A stretch of 33,138 nt of DNA from Bdellovibrionota bacterium (GTDB lineage Bacteria; Bdellovibrionota; Bdellovibrionia; Bdellovibrionales; JAMPXM01), in assembly GCA_963170185.1 (NCBI GenBank), contig CAUJGS010000083.1:1-33138 (forward strand). Direction: 5' to 3'. The notes under the pieces were generated by a model. That model did not search any database and was not told the DNA's origin. It saw only the letters and a program-made list of their open reading frames with translations. The translations under genes and the position numbers were made by a program. Numbering within the stretch: the stretch's first letter is position 1; each line of letters begins with the position of its first letter. This document shows, piece by piece, positions 8,873 through 23,633 of this stretch.

Positions 8873-9595
8873 TTACTGGATCAGTGTCCCTATGCGATCA
8901 CCTTTGACCGCTTTGAGAATATTCGCCGGATCTTTGAGATTGAAACAAAGAATAGGCATCTGGTTGTCCATGCACAGGCTGATCGCTGTCGAGTCCATGA
9001 CGTTGAGTCGACGATTGAGAACTTCGATGTAGTTGAGTTCGTCAAACTTCACAGCGTCTGTGTGTTTCATCGGATCTTTGTCATACACGCCGTCGACCTT
9101 GGTCGCCTTCATGATGACTTCCGCATTGATCTCCATTGCACGGAGAGCTGCGGCTGTATCTGTTGTGAAATAAGGGTTGCCCGTACCGGCAGCGAAGATC
9201 ACCACGCGCTTTTTTTCGAGGTGGCGAACCGCGCGGCGGCGGATGTAGGGCTCTGCAATTTCGGCCATTTCGATGGCGCTTTGAACGCGCGTGTCGATAT
9301 TGAGCTTTTCGAAGGCGTCTTGCAGGGCCAGAGAGTTGATGCAGGTTGCGAGCATGCCCATGTAGTCGGAGCTTGCGCGGTCCATTCCGTTGGCGGAAGC
9401 GGCGACACCTCGGAAGATGTTGCCGCCGCCAATGACGATACCAATCTCAACACCTGTTTCGACCGCCGCAGCGACGCCACGTGCGATCTCTTCGATCGTC
9501 TTGGCGTTGATGCCAAATCCTTGCTCGCCGGCGAGAGCCTCGCCGCTAAGCTTGAGAAGAATTCGTTTATAGTTCGGCCGAACAGGGTTTGCCAT
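8873..9595 (-). CDS. pyrH: Uridylate kinase (UMP kinase)
   Basis: The 240-residue protein of the amino acid kinase fold has [19 protein letters not shown] at its start and IGGGNIFRG, which form the phosphate-binding loops. [18 protein letters not shown] and [13 protein letters not shown] are PyrH signatures. It phosphorylates UMP to UDP in the cytoplasm, feeding nucleotide and UDP-sugar pools; the UTP made from its product is the GalU substrate. It begins 9 bases after the tsf stop with only a weak AAGG upstream. The length agrees with the family. Confidence 0.96.
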
Positions 9596-11712: not shown

Positions 11713-12624
11713 ATGAATATATTTGGTAAAACGGCGTTTTTCGGAGCGCTGATGGCGGGTTTGTTCGGCAGTGGGGGTTGTGCGATGGCGGCAAAAGGGG
11801 AAAAGGGCACGGATTCGGGCAAGCTCTACGAGATTCTCAAGCCTGTGTCGGAAGCCGATGGGGATCTGGTTCGCCCGAGTGCGAGTCGGATTGCGCCGCC
11901 AAAAATCGCTCCGGTGGTTCATGGCGGGATCTCTTATGAGGCACCATGGGACCCGCGCGGCACGCTGATCGCCAAGGACAAAAAGACCGGGAAAGAGCTA
12001 TGGCGTCTCTTGATCGTCGACGATTACATCGATCCGATTTTAGAGCGCGATGTGCAAGAGATTTGGTTCGCGAAAATGGAGATTTCCAAAGACGGAAAGA
12101 CCATGAATGTGACGGACGAGTCGGGCCGTTTGTACATCGTGGATCTCGAAAAAAAGAGCTTCGTGATTCCACGCTGGGAGGTTTCCACCAAGATTGTTGA
12201 ATGGCGCCCCGGCGAAAAGGGTTGGAAGTACTGGGTCGAGCTTCGTATCTACAACCGTCTCAATCGTCCGATTCTTTTGGACCGAGAGAGTGTGGCCGCG
12301 ACTCGAGAGCTTTCAAATAACCTCTTTCAAGTGAAGGTCGACGGAAAGCAAGTTCCCTACATGGGCATGATGAAAAAGCGTGCGCCGCCCGATCCGAGTG
12401 AGTTTATTCGTCTTGGCCCAGGGGAAACATACTTGAGAGAAATCGAGATCGGCGAAAATTATCGTGTGCCGCCGGGCAATCATGAAGTGACGGTGGGCTT
12501 TGAGCACACCAATCACTTTTCTCCTGATGGATTTCGCATGACGACTTCGCGACCCGATAGCCGCGGGTTTTCTGAAGAGGGCTACGACATCCGTGAGAAC
12601 AAGAAGCCCAAACCCGGGGACTAA
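11713..12624 (+). CDS. Exported protein of unknown function
   Basis: This 303-residue protein has an N-terminal hydrophobic stretch MNIFGKTAFFGALMAGLFG followed by GSGGCAMAAKG. It is therefore either a lipoprotein with an unusual lipobox at C23 or a secreted protein cut near AMA-A. The middle part, TLIAKDKKTGKELWRL and TDESGRLYIVDLEKKSF, reads like beta-strand repeats of the kind seen in quinoprotein- or PQQ-like proteins, but the protein is too short for a full propeller. The C-terminal half (VTVGFEHTNHF) may be an Ig-like or jelly-roll domain. I do not recognise the family. No clear Shine-Dalgarno precedes the ATG; the palindrome upstream may matter. Its stop codon overlaps the stop of the oxidoreductase on the other strand (12621-12624). 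Confidence 0.75.
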   Translation: MNIFGKTAFFGALMAGLFGSGGCAMAAKGEKGTDSGKLYEILKPVSEADGDLVRPSASRIAPPKIAPVVHGGISYEAPWDPRGTLIAKDKKTGKELWRLLIVDDYIDPILERDVQEIWFAKMEISKDGKTMNVTDESGRLYIVDLEKKSFVIPRWEVSTKIVEWRPGEKGWKYWVELRIYNRLNRPILLDRESVAATRELSNNLFQVKVDGKQVPYMGMMKKRAPPDPSEFIRLGPGETYLREIEIGENYRVPPGNHEVTVGFEHTNHFSPDGFRMTTSRPDSRGFSEEGYDIRENKKPKPGD

Positions 12625-13772
12625 GCTTCCGCCGAACGCGGACGATCGCTGTCGGCGTCGAGATCGGTTCCGCTGTGGTGTTCGCCGATTTCCTCGACAA
12701 CTCGGCGGGTTTGCATCAGCGCTCCTAGCGTGTTGCGGCCTTCCGAGAAGAAGGATGATGTCAGCCAGAGGTTTTCGATCTTTGGCAGGCGGCCGGCGTG
12801 GTCAAATGCGCCGATAAGGCTGCCGTGTGACGCCGGAATCACGAGAATACGTTCTTGCACGATCCCTTCGAGGGCCGATTCGTAAGCGCGCTTGATTTGG
12901 CGTTTGATTTGTTTGAGCGCGCTCGCCACGAGTTCTTCTTCGTCGATCTGGTCGCGAGGGATGAGGGTGAACCATTGCGAAACTTGCAGCAAGCGGCCGT
13001 CCTCGGAGCGAGTCGGCTCGAGGAAGAGACCGACCGTCGGTTCTTCGTTTGCGCCCTTTAATACGTGAACAGAGTTGCTGTCGGTCACGGGCTGCGGATG
13101 AACGAGATCCAAGTTCACGCTTGTCCAGAAATCACCCTTCAAGAGCTTTTGGCGAACGCGAGGAGCAAGAGTTCCCTCAGGGAGAAGCGCCGTAAGCAGG
13201 TGCGGGGCTCCAGAGAACACGACCTCTTTTGCGGTGATGCGCTTGGCGCCGTTGATCAGAGATTCGATGATAAAGCCGTCTTCGATCATCATGCGGGTGA
13301 CGTGCGACTGCGTGAGCAATGTGCCGGAGAACTGTTCGGCGAGTTTCGCGACCCAGCTCTTGGGTGTCGAGCTGAGGTTGAGTCGTTTGTGCACGGCATA
13401 CGCTTCGACTTCGGAAGACGTGATCACGCCGTTATCGCCGAAGCCAATGTATGGTTTAAATTTTCCGTCGTCGTAGTTCAGCGGCGCGGATTCAATGGAT
13501 GTGCGCTCGATCTTTTCTCCTAGCACTTGTTCCAGCCAGTCGAGTGCGCCATGAGCCGCTTCCGAATCGGGGAAAAGTTTTAGCCCGTGGTCGACTGCGC
13601 CCGCAGCGGTGAGGCCGCGTCGGCTGGCGCCGCCGACGAGATCGGCCGACTCGACAATTGCAACGTGGCGACCTGTCGCTTCGAGGGCATTGGCTGCGAT
13701 CAGGCCACTTAAACCTGCACCGATGACGAGAGTATCAAATTCTTGTGCTTTGGGAGTTTTTGATTGAGCCAT
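12621..13772 (-). CDS. FAD-dependent oxidoreductase, amine oxidase / phytoene desaturase-like
   Basis: The 383-residue protein has a Rossmann dinucleotide-binding start, DTLVIGAGLSGLIAANALE, with GAGLSG at residues 18-23. VAIVESADLVGGASRRG, the family's E-x-x-x-x-x-GG-x-x-x motif, follows. The C-terminal LWLTSSFFSEGRNTLGALMQ fits the second FAD-binding block of amine oxidase and protoporphyrinogen oxidase-like proteins. The substrate is not evident, and no carotenoid or haem gene is near. The frame runs up to a TTG at 13808, but the ATG at 13772 places the Rossmann motif normally. Ribosome binding looks weak. It follows the CFI-box gene by 101 bases on the same strand and may belong to the same unit. 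It is about 383 residues against 430-500 for typical amine oxidases. Confidence 0.8.
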   Translation of the reverse strand: MAQSKTPKAQEFDTLVIGAGLSGLIAANALEATGRHVAIVESADLVGGASRRGLTAAGAVDHGLKLFPDSEAAHGALDWLEQVLGEKIERTSIESAPLNYDDGKFKPYIGFGDNGVITSSEVEAYAVHKRLNLSSTPKSWVAKLAEQFSGTLLTQSHVTRMMIEDGFIIESLINGAKRITAKEVVFSGAPHLLTALLPEGTLAPRVRQKLLKGDFWTSVNLDLVHPQPVTDSNSVHVLKGANEEPTVGLFLEPTRSEDGRLLQVSQWFTLIPRDQIDEEELVASALKQIKRQIKRAYESALEGIVQERILVIPASHGSLIGAFDHAGRLPKIENLWLTSSFFSEGRNTLGALMQTRRVVEEIGEHHSGTDLDADSDRPRSAEA

Positions 13773-13873
13773 GGACTCGATCAGAGCGTAGGACGTGCGT
13801 CGAATCAAGCGCGGGAGGCAAGTTTTTGCGAGGTGATGAGGAGAAATCGAAGCGAAATCGCCTGTAATTAAGG

Positions 13874-14845
13874 CTACTGGCTGTTTTCCCGGCGTTTTAT
13901 CGCCGGTTTTTCCTGAAAACTACGGGGAGAAGACGCTAGCGGGCGAGTGAGCGCAGCGACGAAACGCAGGGCCTGTCGCAAGACGGCGCGTAGAGGCGAC
14001 GGCGCGCGATCGATCCAGCCGGCGAGGCGAGGTGAGACGCGGTAGTAGAGTCTGGTCGCGATTCGTCCGCATCGCGAGCGTCGAAGCACGCGATCGCGGA
14101 ACTGGCGCAAGTCGGTGACGGTCGGGGATTCGTAACCGTCAAAAGCCGCCGTCGCGATAAAGCAGCGCGGACGATTTTTATTCGAAGCCTTGACGAAAAA
14201 GCGGTACACGTCCGCGTTTTTTCCGGTGCGTGAGAGGCCTTCGGCTTTGCGCATGATATGTGGAAAAATCGGTGTGAATCTGGCGAACTCCGCGAGTTTT
14301 TTTGCCGCGGTCATTTGGCGATCTTTGTAGCGCGGCGATTGGTCGTAGATTCGCATGAGATCCCAGTAAACAGAGGCGACGACGGTCATCTCTTGTTGGC
14401 GTGAGCCCGAGGCAAATAGCTCGGGCGAAAGCTCGCCCGGTTTTTTATCGTAAACGAGTTCCAACACACGCAGGTATTTTTCATACTGCACGGCGGACTC
14501 CGCGTAGCTCTTTTGTGCCAAAAGCTCTTTGGCTTTTTTCACGAGATTCACGCGGTTTCGCCAGAGCATGAGGCGGTTTTGTTCTTTTGCCTGCTGCTGC
14601 GCCCTTAGGGCGGCTCCTTTGGAAACCATTTTGGTCAAAATGGAATAACACCCGGCGCAGACCGTATCGGGCACGGCCGAAAGCTGCGCGTTTTCTTGTA
14701 AGCCGATCTTCATTCCTGCCGCAACCGGCACAAGCGAAGGGACGTTGTCGCCGCAGTATGGGCAGACAATGACTCCCTCTTCGTCGCCTTTGGGCGAAGG
14801 GGCCTTCTTGGGACTCGGTTGAAGACTCGTGTCGGCTCCGGCCAT
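13874..14845 (-). CDS. Zinc-ribbon protein with C-terminal CFI-box domain
   Basis: The 323-residue protein has two CxxC knuckles near its N-terminus, CPYC at 28-31 and CAGC at 63-66, likely one zinc site. An alpha-helical middle with basic and aromatic residues resembles a TPR- or coiled-coil-like segment. From residue 228 it has CFIATAAFDGYESPTVTDLR, then QFRDRVL and RLYYRVSPRLAGWI. This is the CFI-box-CTERM pattern, a motif near the C-terminus of many otherwise unrelated bacterial proteins whose role is not known. There is no N-terminal signal peptide. Its ATG overlaps the stop of the upstream gene as TAATG (14843-14847), so the two are coupled. It is the last gene of a trio with two secreted cysteine-rich paralogues. 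Confidence 0.75.
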   Translation of the reverse strand: MAGADTSLQPSPKKAPSPKGDEEGVIVCPYCGDNVPSLVPVAAGMKIGLQENAQLSAVPDTVCAGCYSILTKMVSKGAALRAQQQAKEQNRLMLWRNRVNLVKKAKELLAQKSYAESAVQYEKYLRVLELVYDKKPGELSPELFASGSRQQEMTVVASVYWDLMRIYDQSPRYKDRQMTAAKKLAEFARFTPIFPHIMRKAEGLSRTGKNADVYRFFVKASNKNRPRCFIATAAFDGYESPTVTDLRQFRDRVLRRSRCGRIATRLYYRVSPRLAGWIDRAPSPLRAVLRQALRFVAALTRPLASSPRSFQEKPAIKRRENSQ

Positions 14846-16536
14846 TACTTCGCGGTTCCTTTGCCTTTTGTCGGAATCAGATTCACACCTTTGTCAAAAG
14901 CGAGCGCGCGACACGCGGTATCGGCGCAGCAGGGGCCGAGGAGGCGAAGTCTTGCAACTGGTTGCGCGACGCTTGGATCATACTGTTTCCAGCGTAGCGA
15001 GTCGTTGGCGCGTCTCAAGAGATCTTGTGCGCGCTTGAGATCGGCTCCGCTAAGAGACTCGCCGCCGACCAGTGTGACCGATTGGCAGGCGTTGTTTTTA
15101 GTTGGGCAGTTGTACTCGATTTTCGCGCTTCTACCGGCGCTGGAGCTGGCTTTGAATGCCAGTGCCTTCTCCACCACTTCTTCGGTTTTATTCGGTGGAA
15201 TTCTGTAGGATTCAAATTCCTTTCCCGAGAGAAGGCTTGTGCAAGTCGCGTCGGTGCAAGCTTTCACATCAAGTGAACGATCTGAAACGATAGAGATCTT
15301 GTCCAATTGAGCGGCGGCTTCGAGAAGTGTGTTCTTGTGAGTCGTGTACCAGGCCTTCATTCCGGTTGCGAAGATCGACATTTGTTCCTCGACGCTTCTT
15401 TCGGGGCCGTAAGAGCGTTGATTCTGAAGGTCATTGAATTTCGCGCAAGCGGTCGAGGTTTGATCCAGAAGTTTCGGTTGTTGCGCTAGGTAGCCCAGTT
15501 CGTCTTTGATTCTACAGAGTCGTTTGGTCTCGCGCTCAAGTTTGCCGATATCACTTTCGAGTCGATTCTTTTGATAGGCACTGCTCGCGGCGTCCGCGCT
15601 GAGTCGTTGAAGATTGCCGCCGTAGAATTCAAAGTCCATGCGGCGATTGCCTGGATTTAATTGTCGAGGTTCAAAGAACACGACCTGTGAATTGCCGTCG
15701 GATTTCAACTGCACGCCTTGATCAGGGCGTGCAACGAATTCGACCTTGGTGCCACCGACCATGGCAAAGCCTTTGGCGCCTTCAGGCGTACACTGAACGT
15801 CGTATCGAGAGAGAGTGATTCCTTTGAAGACGGCCTTTGCCCAGTCGAGCTCGCCGGTGCTTTGGAAGTGTGCACCGTGAAGAAGCGAACTGTCGAGTGA
15901 GGTCTCTTTGATCATGTCGCGCAGAGCTTGTGGCGTCGATTTTCCGGCCGCACGCACATAGTAGTAAAGTGGCAGAACCTCGGGACTTGGCGCCGCTGCG
16001 TCGGCTTCTTTTACAAGCTGAAAGGCGATCCCGGCCCACTCGAAAAATCGTGCTGGCAAAGATCGGTTCGCGCCGGATTTTTTCGGTGTGTCTTGAGTCG
16101 GATTCAGGTGCCGATTGAGATCGCGCAAAATCGAACCGGATTCTGGCATCGTCCAGCTTCGGCCGTTGAGAAGAAATTCGGTTTTACCAAGTTCGGGCGG
16201 GCGCACTTCGAAAAGGACTTTGCCCTTTTTGTCGGACATTCGCAGGTTCGTGCCGACGGCCTCGATGACATGGCTCTTCGAATATTTGTAAGAAGCCAGG
16301 AGGCGCTGAAGTTCGATCTTGTCTTCGGGGGCCGCGGAATTGAGGAGCGCTGTCTTCATATCCTGATCGAGCATTTTGCCAGAGAACTCGTCGCGGATTT
16401 TTTCGGCGATGGCGGCTTGAATCATTTGATAGGTCGGCGTCGAGACCGCCTGAGGTTCCGCAGCTTCGGCTTGGAAATTCGCGAGCAAAAGCCCTGATGC
16501 GAAGGCAAAGCGAAGCCATTTTAGGTCGATGATCAT
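14845..16536 (-). CDS. Secreted cysteine-rich protein of unknown function, paralogue B
   Basis: This 563-residue protein has a Sec-type signal peptide (MIIDLKWLRFAFASGLLLAN, cut after about AEA at 24-26). The mature part has ten cysteines at about 249, 341, 364, 427, 432, 477, 484, 536, 537 and 542, typical of disulfide-linked extracytoplasmic proteins. It is homologous to its upstream neighbour along the whole length. Shared blocks are SDKKGKVLFEV, an NGRSWTMPESGSI block followed by NRHL, ACTDATC, NCPTKNNAC and RLLGPCCADTACR near the C-terminus. Both proteins end in KGTAK or close to it. Its ATG overlaps the neighbour's stop (16533-16536) and its own stop overlaps the CFI-box ATG. I recognise no known domain. 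Confidence 0.8.
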   Translation of the reverse strand: MIIDLKWLRFAFASGLLLANFQAEAAEPQAVSTPTYQMIQAAIAEKIRDEFSGKMLDQDMKTALLNSAAPEDKIELQRLLASYKYSKSHVIEAVGTNLRMSDKKGKVLFEVRPPELGKTEFLLNGRSWTMPESGSILRDLNRHLNPTQDTPKKSGANRSLPARFFEWAGIAFQLVKEADAAAPSPEVLPLYYYVRAAGKSTPQALRDMIKETSLDSSLLHGAHFQSTGELDWAKAVFKGITLSRYDVQCTPEGAKGFAMVGGTKVEFVARPDQGVQLKSDGNSQVVFFEPRQLNPGNRRMDFEFYGGNLQRLSADAASSAYQKNRLESDIGKLERETKRLCRIKDELGYLAQQPKLLDQTSTACAKFNDLQNQRSYGPERSVEEQMSIFATGMKAWYTTHKNTLLEAAAQLDKISIVSDRSLDVKACTDATCTSLLSGKEFESYRIPPNKTEEVVEKALAFKASSSAGRSAKIEYNCPTKNNACQSVTLVGGESLSGADLKRAQDLLRRANDSLRWKQYDPSVAQPVARLRLLGPCCADTACRALAFDKGVNLIPTKGKGTAK

Positions 16537-18206
16537 TTTGCGGTTCCTTTCGTTCGAGAATCCGTCGGATTTGATTTCACGTTGAGGCCGAGCTCTTTAG
16601 TGAGTCGCTCGCGGCATAGGGTTTCGGCACAACACTGTCCAAGTGGGCGAAGGGCGGAAGCGTCAGCGAGAAAGGGGTCTTTGCGCCAATACATGCTGAG
16701 GTTGGCTTTGTGGATCTCAGCGCGAAGTCGGCCCTGTTCTTTGGCTGGCAGTCGGCGAGCGGCTTCGGTCTCGGTTAATAGGGAGCAGGTTTCATTTTCC
16801 ACGCTGCAGCCGTACCGAACGAGAGGTTGGTTGCCAGTCGCGGGGTGTCGTTTGGCCAGGATCTCGGTAGCCTCGCTTGAGGGGCTTGGCGGAGCTGGGC
16901 GAATCATTTCGACGGCGTTGGTCTCGCCGATCATTTCGCAAGTCATTCCGTCTCGGCATTGCCCAATGCTGAGTTTTCTTCCGATGACTTTGATATTGGC
17001 TACTGAGTTCATCATGTCGCGAATCGCGGTGGCCTCGTCGTTGACGAATTTTGTGGTGGCGTCCTGGAAGCGAAAGTAGGCGTTCTGAGAAAGTGAAATG
17101 CCTCGGCTGCGTTCGCACTCCACGCGAGCGGGGCCACGTTCGGCATTCAAGCATCGCCCTTCGATTGAAACCCGTTTTTCATACGAGCGTTCGCAAAGTG
17201 CCGCCATCTTGGCATCGACTTTCAACATGGTGATGCGCTCGCAGATCGTGCGCAAGGGGCCGTCGACGATGGCCATTGCGGTTTCCGGAGATTGGGACTG
17301 CGCGAAGCTCGCGAGCAGGCGATCGAGGTACTTCGCGGCTGCATCGAAATCGATGCGTGACGGACGAAGGCGTACAGGGGCGGCGTCGCGAAACGCCGGA
17401 GTGAGAATGAGGTCACCGTTGGCGCGCGACTCAAAGCGATGCATTTGTCCGTCGATGCGGGCTACGCCGGTGGCTTTCACTTTCGCGCCGACGCCTTGGC
17501 AGGTCAGCGTGCCTTCCTTGTCGAGAACGAAACGTTTTGCGACTGCGGCGAAAGCGTTAGATGACTCGGGCATGAGCTGCGCTTTGATAGCCGTCGCTTG
17601 GTTCTCCACCTCTTGAGAAACGGAGTGGCTTTGCGGCGGCGTTTGATTGGCGTCGTAAAAATCGATGTAGAGATAAATGGGCAGCGCGGCCTGCGTCGCC
17701 AGGTCGGCGTCGGCTGTTGAAATGAAGGTATCAAGCAGGGCGTGCTTTCGTGCCTCGTTTTTCAAGTGACGTCGGATGGCTTCGAAGACCGAACCGCTTG
17801 ACGGTTTGACGAAGGGACGCTCGTTGAGCACAAAACCAGAGCGACTTTCCGGGTTGGAGCCGGTCGAGATTTCGGCGATGAGTCGACCTTGTAGATCCGT
17901 GATGCGTAGCTGGCCGTCTTCGGACGAAAGGTGGATCTGTTTTTTGTCGCGATCTATTGCGGCAAGAGCCTTCTTTAAAGAGATCAGGTCGGCTTCGCTT
18001 GCGCGCGCGAGTACGGCGGCGGTGAGAGAGCTTCTGGTTTCTTTGGCCGCGTAGAAGTCGTGCACTTGCCGGCTGGTGCGGTCGTTTTCGATCAATTCGA
18101 ACGCACCGCCGGCGGCGTGTGCTTGCGGTGTCGCGAAGACGCAAAAACACATAGCGAACGAGACGAATGCGCGGCGAGAAAAATTTCGGCCAAAAGGCGA
18201 ATGCAT
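16533..18206 (-). CDS. Secreted cysteine-rich protein of unknown function, paralogue A
   Basis: This 557-residue protein has an N-terminal signal with a twin-arginine-like start, NFSRRAFVSFAMCF, and a cut site near AHA-A at about 29-31; it may use Tat or Sec. The mature part has twelve cysteines. Ten sit in the same order as in paralogue B (about 236, 322, 338, 417, 423, 467, 474, 525, 526, 531), plus an extra pair near 352 and 364. Matching blocks include TDLQGRLIAEI, NERPFVKPSSGSV followed by RRHL, QCRDGMTC, GCSVENETC and RPLGQCCAETLCR. AAAGG lies just before the ATG. It is the first gene of the trio, 68 bases after priA on the same strand. The family is not recognised; tandem duplication is the simplest origin. 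Confidence 0.8.
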   Translation of the reverse strand: MHSPFGRNFSRRAFVSFAMCFCVFATPQAHAAGGAFELIENDRTSRQVHDFYAAKETRSSLTAAVLARASEADLISLKKALAAIDRDKKQIHLSSEDGQLRITDLQGRLIAEISTGSNPESRSGFVLNERPFVKPSSGSVFEAIRRHLKNEARKHALLDTFISTADADLATQAALPIYLYIDFYDANQTPPQSHSVSQEVENQATAIKAQLMPESSNAFAAVAKRFVLDKEGTLTCQGVGAKVKATGVARIDGQMHRFESRANGDLILTPAFRDAAPVRLRPSRIDFDAAAKYLDRLLASFAQSQSPETAMAIVDGPLRTICERITMLKVDAKMAALCERSYEKRVSIEGRCLNAERGPARVECERSRGISLSQNAYFRFQDATTKFVNDEATAIRDMMNSVANIKVIGRKLSIGQCRDGMTCEMIGETNAVEMIRPAPPSPSSEATEILAKRHPATGNQPLVRYGCSVENETCSLLTETEAARRLPAKEQGRLRAEIHKANLSMYWRKDPFLADASALRPLGQCCAETLCRERLTKELGLNVKSNPTDSRTKGTAK

Positions 18207-18274
18207 GCCTTTATTTTAGGGCTCAAATGAAGAGTCGTGCCAGTCGAGTTTCCAGCGGATTCTCGAGCGAATTC

Positions 18275-20380
18275 TCAGAGCAGATGGACGGCGTCGACAT
18301 CGACAGAGAATCGGACCTTCGGCGGGAGCAAGGGCGCTTTGGACTTGGCCCGGGCTTCGATATGCTCGCTCAAAGTCTTGCAAAGGGAGCTGACGGGCGA
18401 GTTGATGCCTTGGCCGCGGATAAGGACTTGAAAGCGGTAGAGGTTTCGAAGCTTTGCCATGGGCGCCGGTGCTGGACCAAGTACCAGGATAGAGTCGGCG
18501 CGCTCGGCCGCCTCGGCACTGTAGCCTTTGCCGCTAGGGTCCTTGGCGTTTTCCAGAGATCGTCTTGCGAGCTCGGCGACTCTTCGTGCGGCGTCTTCGG
18601 TTTCTTGCAAATCGGGACCCGCGAATTTGAGAGCTGCAAGGCGTCCATGTGGTGGGTAGCCGAGAACTTCGCGGAAGCCGAGATCGTGTTCGGCAAAACC
18701 TTCGTAGTCATGTTTGAGCGTGAACTGAATGCTGGGATGGTCGGGATTGTAAGTTTGAAGAACGACGTGACCCGAACGATCTTTCAGATGGCGGCCCGAG
18801 CGGCCCGCAACCTGTGTCAGAAGCTGGAAAGCGCGCTCGGAGGCGCGAAAGTCCGGGAGATTGAACGCGATGTCCGCCATAACAAGTCCGACCAGGGTGA
18901 GGCCGGGGAAATCGAGCCCTTTGGCGATCATCTGTGTGCCGATCAGGATGTCGGCTTCGCGTTTTTCGATTTTAGCGATGGCCTCTTCAAGATCTTCTCG
19001 CGATTGAATTTCGTCTCGGTCCATGCGCACGGTGCGCGCGTTTGGGAAAAGTTTGGCGAGATCGCGTTCGATTTTTTCGGTTCCAAGTCCCAGCGGTTTT
19101 GGTTCGCCGGTGTTACACTGGCTGCAAACTTCTTTAAGTGACTCGTGATAATCGCAGTAGTGGCACACAAGATGAGATCTGCCGTGAAGAGTCAGCGCGA
19201 CCTCGCAGTTTGGACAATCCGAAGAGTGGCCACACGACGGGCAAACGACGGACTGTGCGATTCCGCGTCGATTTAAAAACAGAGCGGCTTGCTCGCCACG
19301 TTCAAGTGTTTCGGTGAGCGCGAGATGCAGCTCTTGCGAGAGCCAAAAGGGGCGCGATTCGTCGCGGCCGGATTGCCGTTCTTGGTCGCGGGCTTCGCGA
19401 AGATCGATGACATCGATGCGTGGCAGTCCGCCGCTGTGGATTCGCGACGGCAATCGGTGCAGCCGATATTTGCCGAGCTTGGCGTTTTGCCAGGATTCAA
19501 GGCTCGGTGTCGCTGACCCAAGCACGATCGGAATCTCACACATTTTAGCAAGCATCACGGCCGCATCGCGCGCGTGGTAACGAAGCGATTCGTCTTGCTT
19601 GAAGCTTGATTCATGTTCTTCGTCGATCACAATGATGCCGAGCTTCGGTAGCGGGCAAAACAACGCGGACCTGGCGCCGATGAGAATGGGTTTTTCGCCT
19701 TGGTGAGCGGCCCACCAGTTGTCGGTCTTTTCCCGTGGTGTCAGATGCGAGTGGATCACGGCGATCTTTTCGCCAAATCGCCTAGCGAATCGTTGAATCA
19801 GCTGTGGAGTGAGCGAGATCTCGGGGACGAGGACAAGGGCTTGCTCGCCGCGCTCTGCTGCGCGTGCGATAAGTTCCATGTAGACTTCGGTTTTTCCCGA
19901 ACCGGTGACGCCGTAGAGCAGATGGGTTTGAAAACCCGGTGTCGCTGCGATCGCGTTGACGACTTCGGTTTGTTCCGCGGTGAGTGAGACCGAGTGATCA
20001 ACCCCTTCGGTCATGTCGGCCTGAATCAGCGGCGCCTTGCGGGCCTTTTTCCTGCCGCCCGATTTGTCGAGAGGTGGAAACATCAATTGCAGCGTCGGCC
20101 CCAGGGGGTAGGCATAGTATTTTGCAAGCCACTGGAGCCACGCCAAAGACTTGCTGTCGATGACCGGGCGATCTGCGATGAGGCCAAGTGTTTCGCGCAG
20201 CCGGACTCCTTCGGGAGCGGACTCGCTGGGCTCAAGCAGGACGCCAGGAATCTTGCGCGCTCCAAGGGGAACTGTGACAGAGACGCCTGGCATGAGGGCT
20301 TCAGGTGGGAGGGTGTCCGGAATCGCGTAGTGCAGGGGACCCAGCGGTGCATCCACCGCCACGGACCAGATTCGGCTCAC
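18275..20380 (-). CDS. priA: Primosomal replication restart helicase PriA
   Basis: The 701-residue superfamily 2 helicase has Walker A GVTGSGKTEVY at 157-167 and the Walker B DEEH box VIDEEHESSF at 251-260. The zinc-binding insert has paired CxxC knuckles, CPSCGHSSDCPNC and CHYC, followed by CSQC. Helicase motifs V and VI are seen in GTQMIAKGLDFPGLTLVG and LLTQVAGRSGR. PriA recognises stalled or repaired forks and reloads the replisome. The start MSRIWSVAVDAPL agrees with the family's 3'-end-binding domain. Its ATG overlaps the stop of the upstream gene as ATGA (20377-20380). The length is slightly below that of E. coli (about 732). Confidence 0.95.
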   Translation of the reverse strand: MSRIWSVAVDAPLGPLHYAIPDTLPPEALMPGVSVTVPLGARKIPGVLLEPSESAPEGVRLRETLGLIADRPVIDSKSLAWLQWLAKYYAYPLGPTLQLMFPPLDKSGGRKKARKAPLIQADMTEGVDHSVSLTAEQTEVVNAIAATPGFQTHLLYGVTGSGKTEVYMELIARAAERGEQALVLVPEISLTPQLIQRFARRFGEKIAVIHSHLTPREKTDNWWAAHQGEKPILIGARSALFCPLPKLGIIVIDEEHESSFKQDESLRYHARDAAVMLAKMCEIPIVLGSATPSLESWQNAKLGKYRLHRLPSRIHSGGLPRIDVIDLREARDQERQSGRDESRPFWLSQELHLALTETLERGEQAALFLNRRGIAQSVVCPSCGHSSDCPNCEVALTLHGRSHLVCHYCDYHESLKEVCSQCNTGEPKPLGLGTEKIERDLAKLFPNARTVRMDRDEIQSREDLEEAIAKIEKREADILIGTQMIAKGLDFPGLTLVGLVMADIAFNLPDFRASERAFQLLTQVAGRSGRHLKDRSGHVVLQTYNPDHPSIQFTLKHDYEGFAEHDLGFREVLGYPPHGRLAALKFAGPDLQETEDAARRVAELARRSLENAKDPSGKGYSAEAAERADSILVLGPAPAPMAKLRNLYRFQVLIRGQGINSPVSSLCKTLSEHIEARAKSKAPLLPPKVRFSVDVDAVHLL

Positions 20381-22373: not shown

Positions 22374-22421
22374 CATTTGAATGCCTAATCATGATACGCT
22401 TTTTTAGTGGGGATTGATTCT

Positions 22422-23633
22422 ATGCGTGGTTCCTTGAAGGGTAAGTCGGGTATGGGCGCGGCGCTTGCGACTCTTGCGGCGGTTGCGGTTGTTCTCGTAT
22501 TTGGTTTTCAAAACTGTTCGCAACCTCCGGAAGTCGATACGGTTAGCCAGCTTGATTCTGAGGCGGCGAAAGTGGAGTTCGCTTACGACGCCACGATCGA
22601 TCAAATTGCCTACATGTCTTGCGCGGTATCCGATGTCGGCACCTTCGATGCCGGAGCCTATTTTTCGATTCGAGTGGGAGCATATCGCTCTGGCGGACTG
22701 CGGTTAAACGATGCGTTCCGAGCTGGCCAAGGCAAAAAGCCAGTGGAAAAGCAGTCGACCCTCTTGGTGGCAAGCCCGGCGAACTCGCAAACCAAAGTGC
22801 AGTTTGCGATTCGAAAGCTCGATAACTTTCAGGTGATGTACACGTCGTCGGGAAGTTCGATCCATGGACAGGATTACGTGAACATTTTCGAGCCGCTAGG
22901 CACGTTGGATCTTTCGGACCTCTTGGTGCGCACGGACCCGGCGTCTCGTCTTAGATACCTGCGCAACGGAACTGTTTTTGGTTCGCGTTTCGAGGGTAGC
23001 CTTTACTTCACAAAAAATCCGACGCTTGCGAACTCGATTCGCACGGCTTTGCGTAACGATGCGTTTTTGGGGCAGACCTACGCGCACACCTCGACAGGCC
23101 CTTCGGGTTCGCCGAGTTCTTCGGACACACTTGCGAGAAGTCCTCGCGATGTGATCGAGGGTTCGACGGCGAATCCCTACACGCAGGTTTATGGTCGCGG
23201 CTTCTACTTGAAGTTTGCTCAGCCGACGGTGGGAGCGACACCATCGCATGCGAACTTTCCGAATGTGATCTTGCGTGAGGTCTCTGAACTCAATCTGATG
23301 AGTTCGTCGGATCGCACGGGGCTTGGTACTTGGACGTGTCCGGATACGATTCGCTTCCGCATTGTTCGACCGGAGGATTCAAAGGCTGGTTTGGTGGCGT
23401 GTGCGATGGCGCCAGATCCGGCCGTTCTGACTCAAGAGCTTTCGATCGTTCGCAATCAGCTTCGTGTGGAAGATTGGTATGTCGACATGACTAACCGATG
23501 CATTGTTCCGAAGAAGTCGACGAACGCCTGCTACGGTGCCGCAACGCAAATTCAGTACAACATCACGCAGACTTGCACGGAAGGCGTCGATCCGGCGTGT
23601 GTTTCGTTTGCCTCCATCTGCTACCGCCAGTAG
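22422..23633 (+). CDS. Probable lipoprotein of unknown function
   Basis: The 403-residue protein starts MRGSLKGKSGMGAALATLAA, followed by a hydrophobic run ending VFGFQNCSQPPEV. C32 is a likely lipidation site in a non-standard lipobox; FQNC-type ends are frequent, as I recall, in Bdellovibrio-group lipoproteins. The mature part has about six further cysteines, clustered in the last 70 residues, and Ser/Gly/Thr-rich loops such as STGPSGSPSSSDTL. No known domain is recognised. The ATG at 22422 is chosen because GGGGA stands nine bases before it; a GTG at 22407 in frame is the alternative. It is the first gene of a three-gene plus-strand unit. Confidence 0.75.
   Translation: MRGSLKGKSGMGAALATLAAVAVVLVFGFQNCSQPPEVDTVSQLDSEAAKVEFAYDATIDQIAYMSCAVSDVGTFDAGAYFSIRVGAYRSGGLRLNDAFRAGQGKKPVEKQSTLLVASPANSQTKVQFAIRKLDNFQVMYTSSGSSIHGQDYVNIFEPLGTLDLSDLLVRTDPASRLRYLRNGTVFGSRFEGSLYFTKNPTLANSIRTALRNDAFLGQTYAHTSTGPSGSPSSSDTLARSPRDVIEGSTANPYTQVYGRGFYLKFAQPTVGATPSHANFPNVILREVSELNLMSSSDRTGLGTWTCPDTIRFRIVRPEDSKAGLVACAMAPDPAVLTQELSIVRNQLRVEDWYVDMTNRCIVPKKSTNACYGAATQIQYNITQTCTEGVDPACVSFASICYRQ

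Follow-up and report, generated by a model that had tools for sequence, protein, structure and literature searches.

A lineage-restricted tandem pair of cysteine-rich, probably exported paralogues at the priA-CFI site of one Bdellovibrionales clade

Orphan exported cysteine-rich proteins are a kind of protein, not a family; they are recognised by signal-like N-termini, even and conserved cysteine counts, fast evolution and a narrow distribution. The locus described here, which lies in a window of 33,138 nucleotides (the whole stretch of DNA that was analysed) from a predator-related bacterium, has all of these traits, and differs in holding a coupled pair of long paralogues, A and B, that share a C-terminal cysteine element. 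Proteins with the CFI-box-CTERM domain (NF041770) form the other described group that the locus touches; its third gene scores above the cut-off of that family, A and B are unmatched by it, and our literature search on the domain found no paper. As a kind of thing, a lineage-specific exported pair is not unusual. Our preferred reading, to which we give a probability of about 0.6, is that A and B are an exported, disulfide-bonded pair restricted to one lineage, gained downstream of the promoter of the CFI-box gene and most likely working as a heteromer.

Two coupled cysteine-rich paralogues

In the window, the minus strand carries priA, A, B, the CFI-box gene, an FAD-dependent oxidoreductase gene and, further on, rpsB and tsf (Table 1). 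The earlier note had placed and sized A, B and the CFI-box gene correctly, strand included, and had read both junctions as they are: A and B have four nucleotides in common, and a single A belongs both to the stop codon of B and to the start codon of the CFI-box gene.

Table 1 Features of the A-B locus in the window
Feature	Position	Strand	Description
CFI-box gene	13874..14845	-	323 aa; N-terminal CxxC...CxxC; C-terminal NF041770 domain
Gene B	14845..16536	-	563 aa; signal-like N-terminus; 10 cysteines; paralogue of A
Gene A	16533..18206	-	557 aa; signal-like N-terminus; 12 cysteines in the mature part
A stop / B start overlap, ATGA	16533..16536	-	
B stop codon TAA, last base = first base of CFI start (TAATG)	14845..14847	-	
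Putative -10-like hexamer, TAAAAT	18213..18218	-	ends 6 nt before the A start
priA	18275..20380	-	conserved; flanks the insertion on the upstream side, before A
FAD-dependent oxidoreductase	12621..13808	-	conserved neighbour, downstream of the CFI-box gene

The paralogy of A and B, which had been proposed from the letters, is far beyond chance. BLASTP aligned the two proteins over 571 columns at 25% identity (93.6 bits, E 2e-24), against a best score of 27.7 bits in 500 shuffles of B, and a profile-profile comparison of the A pair with the B pair, each composed of the window protein and its orthologue in the congeneric genome G004, gave E 1.5e-25 over 491 columns. In the window A contains 14 cysteines in total, of which those at positions 20 and 22 lie in the signal-like region, and B contains 10; the mature parts hold 12 in A and 10 in B in both genomes, so that both counts are even. 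Across the four known sequences, eight columns always hold cysteine (for A versus B, hypergeometric P 9e-14). To these A adds four mature cysteines and B adds two, and G004 retains every one of them. The claim that the paralogues share ten cysteines in the same order was therefore nearly right: eight columns coincide exactly, whereas the two remaining cysteines of B sit 1 and 4 columns from cysteines of A. The elements CC-A-x-T-x-C-R and KGTAK were both found in A and B of the window, and in the G004 pair only CC-x4-C-R is kept of the first, with tails reading ERTAK and KGVAQ. The C-terminal element common to A and B can be written Y-x-C-x3-N-x2-C ... LR-x-L-x2-CC-x4-CR.

A hydrophobic signal-like N-terminal stretch, judged by eye, is present in all four sequences. 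The window and G004 agree in 35.5% of the aligned residues of A and in 34.7% of those of B, and every mature cysteine is retained. Full retention of cysteines amid low overall identity is the pattern of disulfide-bonded exported proteins, and on this ground A and B are probably exported and probably disulfide-bonded. The genome of the window has three DsbA-family matches. No internal repeats were detected in A or B by profile comparison of three segments, and neither is akin to the other exported genes of the window. AlphaFold, supplied with an alignment of the two window proteins only, returned mean pLDDT values of 35.6 (A) and 38.5 (B) and no usable model.

A very narrow family

Among 369 genomes of the phylum, a single one besides the genome of the window carries the A-B pair, and it is G004, a member of the same genus. 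Its orthologues are 36% (A) and 34% (B) identical to those of the window and stand in tandem, in the same order and at the same place, with both overlaps (GTGA between A and B, TAATG between B and the CFI-box gene, the latter as in the window). The description of A and B as tandem, tightly coupled and probably exported paralogues thus holds in the sole other carrier, and since the pair is known from two genomes only, its being kept together is a matter of one comparison. The genome of the window has no further copies of A or B, and no match was found outside G004 among 60 relatives. A profile of the four sequences, searched against 144 genomes of the class, recovered nothing beyond the known carriers; over the 369 genomes of the phylum it added just two weak matches, with E 0.009 and 0.010, one of which is interrupted by four stops, and both were at chance level. 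A scan for conserved peptides over GTDB contigs, covering 84,980 species with one genome each, found no relative, this being a pattern-based scan that misses distant ones.

Database comparisons agree with the initial impression that neither paralogue resembles a known family. Neither had a match near a cut-off in Pfam or NCBIfam, the best PHROG match had an E-value of 0.01, PADLOC gave none, and among PDB chains the A/B profile had no match at E 5 while B as a single sequence reached E 0.17 at best. A and B are thus a new, very narrow protein family. A phage or plasmid origin was considered and rejected: B had no match in phages, A had none in plasmids, and neither A nor the profile had one in viral contigs. 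In both genomes A and B resemble their neighbours in base composition and in third-position G+C, which gives no sign of recent foreign origin. The neighbours are far more alike between the two genomes (PriA 75%, the CFI-box protein about 75-76%, FAD oxidoreductase 77%, RpsB 89%) than A and B are, and it follows that A and B are fast-evolving. Rapid change beyond the cysteine frame is compatible with proteins at the surface or secreted ones that face changing partners, and also with relaxed constraint.

Could A and B be independent proteins with separate targets, for example secreted factors or proteins of surface recognition, whose coupling reflects tandem duplication only? Their identity of only about 25%, their different cysteine numbers (12 versus 10) and the fast divergence of both are what such proteins would show. 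However, the two copies already stood in this order and with the 4-nt overlap before the two species separated, and both species have retained the arrangement, which favours joint use; we regard independence as unlikely. The suggestion of two partner subunits made in the earlier note remains plausible, whereas the cytoplasmic zinc-ribbon partner that it added to them is unsupported.

The CFI-box gene and the insertion between priA and CFI

The third gene does encode a CFI box, as had been recognised: residues 228-295 match NF041770 with 68.5 bits against a cut-off of 40 (E 3e-19). The N-terminal CxxC...CxxC motif is conserved as well; in 19 sequences of the family C63, C66 and C228-F229 are invariant, and C28 and C31 occur in at least 90%. 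A match to the protein was found in all 40 genomes searched (E 1e-5) and was full length in 38 of them, the exceptions being G002 (76% complete) and G015, which returned only the short CFI box of another protein. In the relatives the gene follows priA, whereas in the window the A-B pair stands between the two. The CFI-box gene is ancestral in the order and occurs in practically every member of the Bdellovibrionales that was examined.

These results bear on the proposal that A, B and the CFI-box gene make up one functional system, with two extracytoplasmic subunits and a cytoplasmic zinc-ribbon partner. Gene order is the same and both overlaps are present in the only two carriers of the pair, and both known occurrences of A-B adjoin the CFI-box gene. 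Against this, 38 of 40 genomes have the CFI-box gene at full length and only two have A-B, and between the carriers its protein is about 75% identical versus about 35% for A and B, which gives no sign that the three share a pace of change. Because the gene is order-wide and normally stands right after priA without the pair, taking it for a dedicated partner of A and B is not justified. Nor does the trio hold as a unit, and genomes that lack the pair at this site have no A or B anywhere. We consider a single three-gene system very unlikely.

The genome of the window has a second CFI-box gene (L009, G000:C134:135-341, in a 652-aa frame), and a DsbA-family gene (G000:C134:7274-7777) lies about 7 kb from it. 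A similar closeness of CFI-box and DsbA-family genes is seen on contig C30 of G003 (Bdellovibrionales bacterium Ga0074137) and contig C1 of G004.

To locate the pair, we compared gene maps of 26 loci and of 80 named Bdellovibrionales loci from public genomes. The common order is galU, a conserved exported gene, priA, the CFI-box gene, the FAD oxidoreductase gene, rpsB and tsf, and of the 72 named loci with a measurable interval, nearly all have priA and the CFI-box gene side by side. Within the genus, the spacer between them is 70 nt in G001 and 16 nt in G003. Given this common order and these short spacers, the A-B pair has been inserted between priA and the CFI-box gene in one two-genome clade. 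A tree built from the PriA, RpsB, FAD oxidoreductase and CFI-box proteins pairs the genome of the window (G000) with G004 as its sister (support 1.000), so that one gain suffices; as alternatives to gain by birth, the pair may have been lost in G001, G003 and all others, or transferred. That the pair is ancient in the order and was lost or diverged beyond recognition elsewhere is highly improbable. Fast divergence and a shallow four-sequence profile could hide relatives, but the priA-CFI interval of other genomes (usually 7-130 nt) is too short to contain the pair, and the rest of those genomes gave no match either.

The pair is a well-delimited, lineage-specific and probably exported addition to a stable housekeeping neighbourhood, galU-priA-CFI-rpsB-tsf, with an empty site available for comparison in close relatives. 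The locus also illustrates how guilt by association can go astray when genes are translationally coupled to a conserved one: the CFI-box gene is older and normally stands without the pair.

Putative promoter, expression and exported genes nearby

We inspected the spacers upstream of the CFI-box gene in loci L070-L149. In many relatives an A+T-rich hexamer (TAAAAT, TACAAT) ends the priA-CFI spacer, 5-11 nt before the start of the CFI-box gene. A strict -10 motif was found there in 22% versus 7% expected, and a relaxed motif, AxAAT with its end 4-11 nt ahead of the start, in 26 of 74 (35%) versus 12% by shuffling; the same relaxed motif occurred before seven control genes in 2-5%, without enrichment. 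Sites resembling a Shine-Dalgarno sequence precede the CFI-box gene in 18%, versus 82-100% for rpsB, tsf and the gene at 8873. These patterns suggest that across the order the promoter adjoins the start of the CFI-box gene and that the message is leaderless or nearly so.

In the window the hexamer stands before A, and the CFI-box gene is preceded by coding sequence of B. With the hexamer before the CFI-box gene in relatives and before A here, the A-B pair probably took over the promoter of the CFI-box gene, which became coupled behind B; the motif test was set after the pattern had come to light and the loci share ancestry, so the take-over is a lead. As a point against it, in G004 TACAAT lies about 45 nt further from the start of A than the hexamer of the window does, and an SD-like site is present.

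Under the preferred reading of a gained, exported pair, an old tandem duplication would have produced A and B before the two carrier genomes split, and the pair would have been gained in the common ancestor of the two species, between priA and the CFI-box gene and downstream of the promoter that served the latter. All three genes are now probably on one message, on which the stop-start overlaps would hold A and B at near-equal amounts and keep the CFI-box gene expressed behind them. A and B would be exported, oxidised by DsbA-like enzymes of the host and most likely assembled into a periplasmic or surface-located heteromer, their sequence outside the cysteine frame evolving fast; they would act together there. 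The CFI-box protein, presumably cytoplasmic and older, would be tied to them by transcription and translation and not by function. If the pair does form a complex, it would represent an unstudied fold. A bolder version, in which a new family with a new disulfide-bonded fold forms an obligate envelope heteromer in one Bdellovibrionales lineage, inserted between a conserved gene and its promoter, strikes us as somewhat unlikely.

Other exported genes occur in and around this interval. The long priA-CFI intervals of four relatives (L112, L117, L126 and L128) contain genes unrelated to A and B. That of L128 (849-3539 of NCGL01000114.1, minus strand) holds several small exported cysteine-containing genes, two of them mutually similar, and that of L112 (4144-7656) encodes an exported protein of 1170 aa; this interval seems open to lineage-specific exported genes. 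Adjoining galU on the opposite strand, the window encodes at 22407-23633 (+) a conserved exported protein with no Pfam match and with 9-11 cysteines in most relatives; as an order-wide unknown it is more promising than A or B. An exported gene of 303 aa (11713-12624, +) lies on the opposite strand, flanked by the FAD oxidoreductase gene and rpsB; its counterpart in G004 (L008:17222-17494) is a frame of only 90 aa with a 39-residue match, possibly a remnant of that gene.
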